Source: an uncultured Phycisphaerales bacterium
Lineage (GTDB): Bacteria; Planctomycetota; Phycisphaerae; Phycisphaerales; UBA1924
Direction of reading: 5' to 3'
Length of the DNA: 64,000 nt
Assembly: GCA_937995595.1 (NCBI GenBank)
Contig: CALKJW010000003.1
Location: forward strand, 1-64,000
Shown here: piece by piece, positions 41,588-43,473 of the stretch
Numbering within the stretch: position 1 is the first letter of the stretch
How the letters are laid out: every line of letters starts with the position of its first letter
Translations under genes and position numbers: made by a program
Notes under the pieces: generated by a model
What the model saw: only the letters and a program-made list of their open reading frames with translations
Database searches by the model: none
Told to the model about the DNA's origin: nothing

Positions 41588-42340
41588 TCAGGCGGACAAC
41601 CCCAGCGCGTCCTCGATGGTGTACTCGCCCGCGGGCTTGCCGTCGAGCCACTTCGCGGCGCGGAGGGCGCCCAGCGCGAACAGGTCGCGTGTCGTCGCGC
41701 GGTGCGTGATCTCGATGTACTCGCCCGGACCGGCGAACCGCACCGTGTGCTCGCCGATCACGTCGCCGCCGCGGATGGCGACGATCTGGTCGTCGCGCAG
41801 CGCGTGGCCCGCGGCGCGCACCGCACCGGCCAGTCGCAGCGCGGTGCCCGACGGCGCGTCCTTCTTCCGGCTGTGGTGCGCCTCGACGATGGAGCACTCG
41901 AAGGCGGGTCCGAGAGCGCGGGCCGCGTCGCGCGCGAGCATCGCGACCACCGCGACGCCCATGGACGTGTTGGGCGCGACGACCACCGCGACCGACCGCG
42001 CCGCGTCGCGGAGCCGCTGCCGCGTGCCGTCGCTCAGGCCGGTCGTTCCGACCAGCAGCGCGGCGCGCAGCGCGACCGCCAGGTCGGCCGCGGCGCTCGC
42101 GCCCTCGTCGGAGGAGAAGTCGATCACGACCCGCGCCAAAACCCCGGTTTTACTGAGGTTTTCTGCGGTCTGCAGCGCGACGGCCGGCGCGCCGCTCTCG
42201 CCTCCGATGCGCGGCGAATCCGGCGCGACGGCCGCGCCAACGACGCGCACCGACGGGTCGAGCGCCGCCAGCGCGACGACGCGCGAGCCCATGCGACCGG
42301 TCGCGCCGTGGACGATGATCGGTGTGGATGAATCGCTCAT
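41588..42340 (-). CDS. dapB: 4-hydroxy-tetrahydrodipicolinate reductase
   Basis: The 250-residue enzyme reduces hydroxy-tetrahydrodipicolinate with NAD(P)H in the diaminopimelate/lysine pathway, which feeds peptidoglycan and protein synthesis. Signatures are VHGATGRMGSRVV at the N-terminus, VIDFSSDEG, LVGTTGLSDG, VVVAPNTSMGV and the family motif VEAHHSRKKDAPSGTA with the catalytic His and Lys. The ATG at 42340 has AAGGAG about 11 bases upstream, a slightly long spacing. It is divergent from the lysine-rich microprotein locus. No other dap gene is adjacent. Confidence 0.93.
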   Translation of the reverse strand: MSDSSTPIIVHGATGRMGSRVVALAALDPSVRVVGAAVAPDSPRIGGESGAPAVALQTAENLSKTGVLARVVIDFSSDEGASAAADLAVALRAALLVGTTGLSDGTRQRLRDAARSVAVVVAPNTSMGVAVVAMLARDAARALGPAFECSIVEAHHSRKKDAPSGTALRLAGAVRAAGHALRDDQIVAIRGGDVIGEHTVRFAGPGEYIEITHRATTRDLFALGALRAAKWLDGKPAGEYTIEDALGLSA

Positions 42341-42385
42341 CGACTTGCAATCTCCTTGGACGGCAGTGTATGGTGCGCAACGTTT

Positions 42386-42470
42386 GCTCAAGCATCGTGC
42401 TTGGGCGCACCGATAGAGGCTGTGCCTCTGTCAAGCGGCAAACGACAGCAAGTGGTGCTTCAGAGCCGCT
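42386..42470 (+). ncRNA. Hairpin-rich leader upstream of the lysine-rich microprotein
   Basis: Three structures occur in a row. CAAGCA-TCG-TGCTTG is at 42389-42403, extendable by GC/GC at both ends. AGAGGC-TGT-GCCTCT is at 42415-42429. A nested pair has AGCGGC/GCCGCT (42434-42439 with 42465-42470) enclosing AGCA/TGCT (42447-42450 with 42456-42459). The region is also less G+C-rich than its surroundings. It would be the 5' untranslated RNA of the 42511 gene. I recognise no known riboswitch consensus; it may be a novel structured leader or part of an operator. Confidence 0.45.
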
Positions 42471-42510
42471 CACATTCCAAATGCTCCGTTGGGAGTTCGA
42501 GGAGAACATC

Positions 42511-42588
42511 ATGGCCAAGAAGGCAAAGAAAGCTGCGAAGAAGTCCGCCAAGAAGTCCAAGAAGGCCGCCAAGAAGGCTCGCCGCTGA
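42511..42588 (+). CDS. 25-residue lysine-rich microprotein (histone H1-tail-like)
   Basis: An open frame from ATG to TGA encodes 12 Lys, 8 Ala, 2 Ser, 2 Arg and Met, in the form MAKKAKKAAKKSAKKSK followed by KAAKKARR. GAGGAG lies 7 bases before the ATG. Eleven of 12 lysine codons are AAG. The AKKA pattern is that of eukaryotic H1 tails and of chlamydial and planctomycete histone-like proteins, so binding to DNA or RNA by charge is a reasonable inference. A lysine-sensing leader peptide is the alternative, since hairpins and a terminator follow. It is transcribed away from dapB. Confidence 0.65.
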   Translation: MAKKAKKAAKKSAKKSKKAAKKARR

Positions 42589-42646
42589 TCGCTGAGCGAG
42601 TCTCGAAGTCGCCAATCCTCTACACACCTACAAGCGTTTCGTACCA

Positions 42647-42708
42647 CGCCGCGAAAGCGGCGCTCTGAAGCACGGATCGGGGTTCTCTGGGCGGTGTAGC
42701 CCGAACCC
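42647..42708 (+). ncRNA. Structured trailer: GNRA-tetraloop hairpin and long bulged stem
   Basis: CGCCGC-GAAA-GCGGCG at 42647-42662 is a perfect six-pair stem with a GNRA tetraloop. GGGTTC, a TCT bulge, GGGC, a six-base loop, then GCCCGAACCC at 42680-42708 make a ten-pair bulged stem. The decamer CTCGAAGCAC is then repeated (about 42710-42733). This lies between the microprotein stop and the terminator. It may be a separate small RNA or the 3' untranslated region. Confidence 0.4.
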
Positions 42709-42734
42709 TGCTCGAAGCACCACTCGAAGCACGT

Positions 42735-42771
42735 CGGGGCTGGCCCATCGGGCCGGCCCCGTGCTCGTTTT
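42735..42771 (+). terminator. Rho-independent terminator ending the microprotein transcript
   Basis: CGGGGCTGGCCC, an ATC loop, then GGGCCGGCCCCG form a 12-bp stem with one T-G pair, followed by TGCTCGTTTT. It separates the microprotein locus from the gene at 42832. Confidence 0.75.
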
Positions 42772-42831: not shown

Positions 42832-43473
42832 ATGGGCCACGACCCCGACGCCGAACGCTGCCTCCGCCTGCTGCGCCGCCACCGCGCCGGCACGCTCGGC
42901 TTCGGCGAACGCCGGGCCGCGGTCGCCTTCGTGCTCGACCCCGCCGACGGACGCGTCGTCATGCCCGTCGAGCCCGGCGCGGCGGCGTTCGAGGAGTTCG
43001 TGCTCTACCTCCCGTCCGAGTGCGACTGCGACGCCACCGCCCTGCTCGCACCCGCGACCATCGACCGCCCCGAGTCTTCCGCCGAGGCCGACCGATGGGC
43101 CGCGTACCACGGCCCCGCGCCCGCCGCGGCGGTGTGGACGGCCTCGCGCGTCCTGGGCGTCAAGAGCGAACACGACGCGGCCGACACGCTGATGGACGAG
43201 CACGCCCTGACCGTCGCCAACGAACTCGGCCGTGACGAGGGCCGGCTCATCCGCGCCGCCAACGCCGACCGCGTGCTGCTCGCCGCGGCGGTCCGCGCCA
43301 TCGCCGGCGCAGACGCGCCCGCCCCGCTGTGCGTCGGCGCCGATGCGCACGGCGTCGACGTCCGCGCGCCCTTCGGCATCATCCGGCTGGAGTTTCCCGA
43401 GCGCGCGGCCGACGCCGCGCACGCCGAGCGGATGCTGCGCGAGGCGATCCTGTCGCGAGGGGCGCGGCCGTGA
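42832..43473 (+). CDS. DUF2470/HugZ-like protein (tentative)
   Basis: The 213-residue protein has an N-terminal part (ERCLRLLRRHRAGTLGFG, AVAFVLDPADGRVVMPVEPG) reminiscent of the split-barrel pyridoxamine-oxidase fold seen in haem-degrading HugZ-type proteins. The C-terminal half has NELGRDEGRLIRAANADRV and GADAHGVDVRAPFGIIRLEF, which fit the DUF2470 pattern. The assignment is weak because the flavin- and haem-binding residues are not obvious. CACAAT lies 8 bases before the ATG. Its TGA overlaps the GTG of the amidohydrolase gene, so the two are coupled. Confidence 0.55.
   Translation: MGHDPDAERCLRLLRRHRAGTLGFGERRAAVAFVLDPADGRVVMPVEPGAAAFEEFVLYLPSECDCDATALLAPATIDRPESSAEADRWAAYHGPAPAAAVWTASRVLGVKSEHDAADTLMDEHALTVANELGRDEGRLIRAANADRVLLAAAVRAIAGADAPAPLCVGADAHGVDVRAPFGIIRLEFPERAADAAHAERMLREAILSRGARP

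Follow-up and report, generated by a model that had tools for sequence, protein, structure and literature searches.

A lysine-rich, H1-tail-like microprotein gene behind a flagellar-type promoter in Phycisphaerales

The closest described counterpart of the gene reported here is hctB, encoding the histone H1-like protein Hc2 of Chlamydia, a genus that has no flagella. Hc2 is composed of repeats rich in lysine, alanine, threonine and arginine, as is the lysine-rich protein treated below. A second group is formed by the Burkholderia-type histone H1-like proteins, such as BpH1 of Bordetella, for which no flagellar promoter is known to us. Among ribosomal proteins, bTHX (S31) is a free basic peptide of fixed length, similar in size to our 25-mer. 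According to the portion of a ChIP-seq study of Chlamydia trachomatis sigma28 drawn on here, hctB and tsp are the only targets of this sigma factor (PMC12282069). Knock-down of the chlamydial histones, in the available part of the respective report, changed visible compaction only modestly and harmed the next infection cycle (PMC13317200), which cautions against equating "H1-like" with plain compaction. For FliA of E. coli, the consulted sections of two papers give TCAAG-N15-CCGATAA as the sites at fliL and flgK, with the fliM operon among the targets (PMC4183435), and TAAAGTTT-N11-GCCGATAA as the consensus (PMC2859248). The agent of nucleoid condensation in Planctomycetes and their relatives is named as open in the accessible text of a 2011 review (PMC3177640), and a search of open-access papers on lysine-rich, histone-like and flagellar-sigma genes of planctomycetes and Phycisphaerae gave none that was recognisable as describing such a gene.

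The open reading frame and its orthologues

The window analysed here is a stretch of 64,000 nucleotides from an uncultured member of the Phycisphaerales (contig CALKJW010000003.1, forward strand). Positions 42511-42588 of its plus strand form an open reading frame (ORF) for MAKKAKKAAKKSAKKSKKAAKKARR, a protein of 25 amino acids (ATG at 42511, TGA at 42586-42588). The initial annotation had described an ORF of 25 residues with 48% lysine and GAGGAG at good spacing, and this is confirmed: 12 residues are lysine, two are arginine and none is acidic, alanine is the sole hydrophobic residue past Met1, and six bases separate GAGGAG (42499-42504) from the ATG. Such a lysine-alanine 25-mer would be easily missed by gene callers. 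The locus is composed as follows.

41588..42340, minus strand: dapB-like gene, divergent neighbour (kept in 19 of 48 orthologous loci)
42341..42510, plus strand: divergent intergenic region and 5' leader (94.7% identity to the sister genome)
42387..42415, plus strand: flagellar-type promoter CTCAAG-N17-CCGATA, putative -35 at 42387-42392 and -10 at 42410-42415 (shared element)
42451..42461, plus strand: 5' arm (AGTGGTGCTTC) of the leader/3'-UTR stem enclosing the ORF (paired occurrence across loci)
42499..42504, plus strand: Shine-Dalgarno GAGGAG, 6 nt 5' of the ATG (sequence; SD-like motif in relatives)
42511..42588, plus strand: ORF of the 25-aa lysine-rich microprotein, ATG to TGA (ORF call and orthologues)
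42589..42734, plus strand: 3' UTR with predicted hairpins (42589-42770 with 92.9% identity to the sister genome)
42714..42724, plus strand: 3' arm (GAAGCACCACT) of the leader/3'-UTR stem (paired occurrence across loci)
42735..42771, plus strand: intrinsic terminator, 12-bp hairpin and T-tract (terminator scan)
42832..43473, plus strand: uncharacterised 213-aa gene, downstream neighbour (kept in 27 of 48 orthologous loci)

The further proposal that the ORF sits in its own transcription unit with a terminator is also supported. The ORF is preceded by an exact copy of the promoter element (42388-42415) and followed by a terminator-like site (42735-42761) with a 12-bp stem of 11 GC pairs and the tail TGCTCGTTTT. 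The terminator scan of the region returned two sites, the second being weak and on the minus strand, against 0.6 expected from shuffled sequences; no promoter of the sigma70 type was found in the region of the ORF. The divergent gene is presumably dapB-like, a name given from its sequence features. The 213-aa neighbour protein has no match in Pfam or NCBIfam; nor has the 25-mer, for which PDB likewise gave none up to E 10, a test limited by low complexity. A reading of the locus as tmRNA was rejected with ARAGORN, which predicted zero genes in the window.

Upstream of the ATG the frame stays open as far as a GTG at 42322 (88 aa), and this longer version was rejected because the extension is common only to the window and the sister genome G001. 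In the relatives L005, L006, L009, L024 and L032 the ORF starts at the ATG, and in L007, L008, L011, L021, L023 and L030 the frame is open upstream with residues that appear unrelated by eye; the ATG is therefore taken to be the right start. Identity to G001 amounts to 96.2% in the ORF, 94.7% in the leader and 92.9% in the 3' UTR, and among the flanks to 85.2% at the start of dapB, 70.5% just after the terminator and 63.6% at the start of the next gene.

Orthologues were sought with a pattern consisting of a ribosome-binding site, ATG-Ala-Lys-Lys (MAKK) and a later Lys-Lys, which matched in 112 of the 120 genomes of the family and never in the reversed control. A sample of 112 stretches, hand-picked from the family matches listed with their sequence unseen, and 8 stretches from other families contained 113 matches. 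These come from 56 genomes, of which 55 belong to the family and one, G042, to family f2. Three matches at contig ends (7, 11 and 11 aa) were dropped. With limits of length and composition that were set after inspection of the list, the 110 usable matches divide into 31 short forms, 17 long forms and 62 other genes, the 48 short and long forms being wholly Lys/Arg-rich. The short forms are free-standing proteins of 17-25 aa from 31 genomes; the long forms, from 17 genomes, are longer or cut and span 25-151 aa, the one of 25 aa (L106) being cut at a contig end. No genome has both forms, the gene thus occurring once per genome in 48 of 56 genomes. Eight genomes have neither under the limits used: G008, G183 and G206 contain a candidate cut at a contig end, G034 has a 66-aa MAKR.. 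gene (L028), and the remaining four are G179, G198, G219 and G227. The 62 other genes served as controls, although 8 of them are themselves 30-37% Lys+Arg; judged by eye, they include ribosomal protein S11 and an HU that has a Lys-rich arm. By eye, these genomes repeatedly contain HU-like proteins whose N-terminal arm is rich in Lys, Ala and Pro (L141, L146, L148, L173 and others), and also a small protein family (L152, L097, L083, L140 and L145) in which a Lys-rich N-terminal arm is followed by a conserved SS.G.KLYAVR..DG.F.

The dapB gene in divergent orientation and/or the 213-aa gene downstream, at the right place and on the right strand, accompany the gene in 35 of 48 loci (23 of 31 short forms, 12 of 17 long forms), compared to none of the 62 controls. 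Given these shared neighbours, short and long forms are most simply one gene at different lengths. The initial annotation's image of an isolated H1-tail-like peptide survives with regard to the likeness to H1 tails; isolated the peptide is not, being present in most of the sampled genomes and in five families of the order. It is not the smallest of its kind either, since orthologues measure 17-151 aa in the sampled stretches and 13-150 aa in named genomes.

The 639 codons of the 31 short orthologues specify, after the initial Met, nothing but K, A, S, T, G and R, and no acidic residue occurs; all four Ala codons are in use, and AAG makes up 352 of 382 Lys codons. Of 61 genomes searched at the DNA level, 41 gave matches; beyond the genus the similarity corresponds to the ORF and in a few cases runs up to about 50 bases into the leader. 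Loss of the frame with retention of the RNA structure had been named beforehand as the result that would speak against a protein-coding gene. This was not seen: from family to family the codons, lengths and flanks differ, and the ATG, Shine-Dalgarno sequence, frame and composition are maintained. A profile built from 11 aligned peptides detected almost nothing (14 of 151 genomes), probably because such proteins are lost to the low-complexity correction; the patterns at the DNA level, in contrast, were effective. We conclude that the 25-aa ORF is a genuine small coding gene with its own transcription unit.

The upstream element and its distribution

The bipartite motif TCAAG-N17-CCGATA at 42388-42415 is the sole exact match in the window, and CCGATA recurs about 100 bases 5' of the ATGs of the orthologues. 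In upstream regions of 300 bases, which were available at full length in all loci, CCGATA is present for 29 of 31 short and 16 of 17 long forms (45/48) versus 3 of 62 controls, and the longer motif TCAA-N18-CCGATA for 26 of 31 and 13 of 17 (39/48) versus none of 62. Position by position, the 48 loci have T48 C41 A45 A48 G44, 17 variable bases, and C47 C48 G48 A48 T48 A46; these figures are biased by the choice of the best -10/-35 pair in each locus, and the 39 of 48 represents the unbiased count. The conserved spacer is 17 bases, and a pattern with spacers of 14-16 failed to match the window's own site. CTCAAG-N17-CCGATA occurs at 32 sites in 20 genomes, of which 19 belong to the family and one to family f2, and the backwards pattern at 4; in 14 genomes TCAAG-N17-CCGATA occurs at 51 sites and the reversed pattern at 5. 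The element also had predictive value: in G175 and G200, which the ORF pattern had missed, it is followed by a MAKRRAKKRATKK.. gene.

A combined pattern of promoter, 72-102 bases and ATGGCNNNNAAR matched in 34 of 65 genomes of the order, from five families, and in 6 of 233 elsewhere in the class, with no match in the reversed control. Twelve of the 34 were read (families f2, f4, f5 and f6), and 10 of these encode Lys-rich proteins of 31-110 aa (f4 2/2, f5 1/1, f6 6/6, f2 1/3); the other two loci, in G097 and G100, encode no Lys-rich protein. Among the six matches outside the order one is Lys-rich (G307) and five are not. The locus of G307 (L487), from another family of the class, combines a 28-aa MAKKVAKKVAKKAPAKK.. 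ORF with the promoter element, so that the system of gene and promoter may reach beyond the order. In a collection of named genomes, a stricter combined pattern was found in at least 118 stretches, 72 of the 80 match titles listed being Planctomycetes or Phycisphaerae. Of the 118 matches listed, 110 begin a protein with more than 40% Lys+Arg and 8 do not; a loosely defined SD-like motif lies 5' of all 110 Lys-rich ORFs among these listed matches, and 95 of them have their stop within the locus, 42 encoding at most 25 aa (minimum 13) and 38 more than 60 aa. Carriers with a complete chromosome include the strains ZRK32 (L367, 102 aa) and ZRK34 (L358, 97 aa). The gene is thus present in a cultured strain, Poriferisphaera ZRK32, which bears one polar flagellum and reproduces by budding according to the part of its description used here (PMC10945688).

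The element is not confined to the microprotein gene. The window's own genome contains four exact sites, upstream of the microprotein, fliM, a beta-propeller lipoprotein and a ParA-like ATPase, and all four recur in the sister genome G001 alongside an additional site (L212/L343). Of the 51 sites in 14 genomes, 41 could be assigned to a recurring gene: 14 to the Lys-rich gene (14 of 14 genomes), 11 to fliM, 7 to the lipoprotein, 7 to the ParA-like ATPase and 2 to a TPR membrane protein, with 10 sites left over. FliM was identified with PF02154, and lipoprotein, ATPase and TPR protein with Pfam/NCBIfam on one member each; blastp was used to check the orthology of 8 lipoproteins and 4 ATPases, and the remaining members, including the lipoprotein of the window's genome (L467), were judged by eye. 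FliM is present in 30 of 30 genomes, and after removal of seven in which no start codon could be placed, 14 of 23 fliM upstream regions have the exact element and 18 of 23 a copy with at most one mismatch. The spacer at fliM is 17 in all 18, although 16-18 were allowed. Random 250-base windows of the fliM loci contain such a copy in 14 of 600 cases, some of which are likely to overlap the true site.

The lipoproteins with the element are PD40/TolB-like beta-propeller proteins (L335, L203, L211, L221, L334, L340, L328, L329 and L467), and in G016, G020, G030, G099 and G185 the gene lies about 5-11 kb from fliA on the same contig. The ATPases are ParA/MinD-like (L344 on contig 23 of G000, L326, L341, L323, L468, L470 and L471), L326 having a C-terminal match to glycogen-binding domains (CBM48/AMPK1_CBM). 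The element at these ATPase genes possibly links the flagellar programme to the positioning of the chromosome or of cell poles.

The TCAAG and CCGATA boxes of the element are the same as in the E. coli FliA sites at fliLMNOPQR and flgKL. The spacer, in contrast, is 15 bases in E. coli and 17, two bases longer, in the planctomycete element, fliM included. In contrast to the FliA promoters of E. coli, flagellin genes and fliA are without the element in the planctomycete family. The expectation that they share it had to be given up: the exact element is present in none of 29 flagellin upstream regions, two of which have a copy with one mismatch and spacers of 15 and 19, and no copy with fewer than two mismatches was found in 16 fliA upstream regions (fliA was located in 16 of 20 loci). 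In families f5 and f6, moreover, TTGAC lies downstream of CCGATA in 8 of 8 sequences listed, like a housekeeping promoter added in tandem, which, judged from these sequences, may contribute to transcription in the f5 and f6 carriers. Because of the spacer, the absence from flagellin genes and fliA and the TTGAC of f5 and f6, we refer to a flagellar-type promoter.

FliA is the likeliest, though unproven, reader of the element as judged from the DNA. The genomes encode a FliA/WhiG protein above the TIGR02479 cut-off in 20 of 20 and 51 of 52 cases (two genomes are in both sets). G058, with gene and promoter present, gave no FliA match at E 1e-45, perhaps owing to a gap in the assembly. FliA is nearly universal in the order, and therefore its presence or absence cannot test whether the gene depends on it. 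It is quite possible, if less probable than our preferred explanation given below, that another sigma factor or regulator reads the element and that the gene lies outside the FliA regulon. The 17-base spacer and the flagellin and fliA genes without the element speak for this, whereas the FliA-like sequence of both boxes and the frequency of the element at fliM speak against it; condensation of DNA would still be possible, and this alternative overlaps the preferred explanation except for the sigma factor.

Two further observations concern FliA itself. G149, a member of the order, has a strong FliA match and no flagellin match; Chlamydia has likewise kept FliA without flagellin. Outside the order, in G370 (L490), the element appears by eye before a FliA/WhiG-like gene, possibly reflecting autoregulation or chance; the 16 fliA genes located in the family show no such arrangement.

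Function of the lysine-rich protein

That the protein binds nucleic acid is inferred from its composition. With about half Lys plus Ala, Thr and Arg, no acidic residue in the short forms and a variable number of repeats, the protein recalls the C-terminal tails of H1, protamines and Hc2. We best read it as a minimal H1/protamine-like protein that condenses nucleic acid and is made with the flagellar programme, its likeliest activity, from this composition, being to condense DNA by charge or to coat RNA. The promoter class suggests expression in the flagellated stage, and the two together suggest repackaging of DNA or RNA when swimming cells are made.

The best overall explanation, to which we assign a probability of roughly 0.55, is an H1-tail/protamine-like gene under a flagellar-type sigma factor whose product would condense the nucleic acid of the flagellated stage. 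Of this, the existence of the gene, the orthology and composition of its product and the common promoter element are shown by the sequences. The ORF would be a translated gene, one per genome, for a minimal histone-H1-tail/protamine-like protein. RNA polymerase with a flagellar-type sigma factor, most likely FliA (sigma28), would transcribe it from TCAAG-N17-CCGATA, and the same polymerase would transcribe the genes of fliM, the beta-propeller lipoprotein and the ParA-like ATPase. The polycation would attach to nucleic acid through its charge, largely irrespective of sequence, and would condense or re-organise the nucleoid, possibly also RNA, of the flagellated cell stage. The gene would then be a candidate nucleoid condenser, present as a single copy in the majority of the genomes read from a planctomycete order and overlooked by the family libraries searched, and its promoter hints at the time of production.

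A basic peptide associated with the ribosome or with RNA, comparable to bTHX/S31, in place of a nucleoid protein is unlikely. Size and charge are alike, and polylysine-alanine is generally known to bind RNA as well as DNA. A range of 17-151 aa among the orthologues is odd for a part of the ribosomal subunit, however, and the gene differs from bTHX in this variable length and in its flagellar-type promoter. The element is moreover common to fliM and ParA-like genes and not to genes of the S11 or HU type (0/62 controls), and no PDB entry matched up to E 10, low complexity limiting this test.

Rather improbable, too, is an accessory role in the flagellar programme with a target other than nucleic acid, such as a polyanionic component of the envelope or a flagellar assembly factor. 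The element common to fliM and an envelope-type lipoprotein would fit such a role. The restriction to K, A, S, T, G and R after the Met in 31 of 31 short forms makes a signal peptide or hydrophobic segment impossible in these, however, and the ParA-like ATPase with the element points rather to the chromosome or the cell poles.

The RNA of the locus deserves separate consideration. Within the genus, the conservation of leader and 3' UTR is close to that of the ORF and exceeds that of the coding flanks. The leader motif GTGGYGC, mostly about 59 bases 5' of the ATG, can pair with GCRCCAC in the 3' UTR, and in the window's genus a T-A exchange for C-G compensates within this stem. Of 47 loci, 12 have both arms, 7 only the 5' arm, 1 only the 3' arm and 27 neither (Fisher P 1e-5 for co-occurrence, ignoring the relatedness of the loci). 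The stem, which may stabilise the short message, is therefore a feature of a clade and not what defines the gene, as it is absent from most loci. A structured regulatory RNA with an incidental ORF could account for the conservation of the untranslated parts, the recurring stem with its compensatory exchange and the folding z-score of -2.0, but it is very improbable: Rfam has no family matching the locus at the gathering threshold or up to E 10, the DNA similarity outside the genus is that of the ORF with at most 50 bases of leader in a few cases, and the protein persists in the 27 loci without the stem. Hardly credible is a lysine-sensing leader peptide (attenuator) of the lysine-biosynthesis gene dapB, suggested by a Lys-rich ORF adjoining a dapB-like gene and contradicted by strand and length, since dapB is divergent on the opposite strand, the next gene on the same strand has no Pfam or NCBIfam match and follows a terminator-like site, and orthologues reach 151 aa.

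Relation to chlamydial and other H1-like proteins

The nucleic-acid-condensing protein with a flagellar-type promoter that we favour is most similar to Hc2. The hctB product is a lysine-rich H1-like protein, transcribed by sigma28 in a PVC host; the Lys-rich gene, likewise in a PVC host, has sigma28-like boxes in common with fliM, at a spacer of 17. Chlamydia has no flagella, whereas carriers of the Lys-rich gene have fliM, flagellin and FliA, and Hc2 is roughly ten times as large as the short forms. Pfam PF07382 (HC2) gave 16.5 and 14.3 bits for long forms against a cut-off of 40, and no match for a 98-aa form and the 25-mer; low complexity alone can yield such scores, here and for the H1-like model below. 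As the scores lie under the cut-off, the protein is not a member of the HC2 family, and we suppose by analogy that it may work like Hc2 and H1 tails from outside that family as delimited by the cut-off tested. Hc2 differs in size between species and, in the available part of PMC1403754, has been seen only in Chlamydiaceae; common descent with the Lys-rich gene is therefore unproven, as far as this source reaches.

Tentatively, and as an idea we consider more doubtful than the function proposed above, the flagellar sigma factor of the PVC group could have an old second job, in which an H1-like polycation packages the chromosome of the dispersing cell. Phycisphaerales would have kept both jobs on one type of promoter (microprotein and fliM), and Chlamydiae would have lost the flagellum but not sigma28, of whose only two targets hctB is one. 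If this were true, no smaller proteins dedicated to chromosome condensation than the 13-25-mers would be known. It offers a testable reason why Chlamydia, lacking a flagellum, still has a flagellar sigma factor at work on an H1-like gene.

The Burkholderia-type H1-like proteins stand further apart. Their model (NF038053) is the best NCBIfam match of three long forms and covers nearly their whole length, but the scores of 23.5, 21.0 and 17.7 bits compare with a cut-off of 80, and the 25-mer has no match to it.
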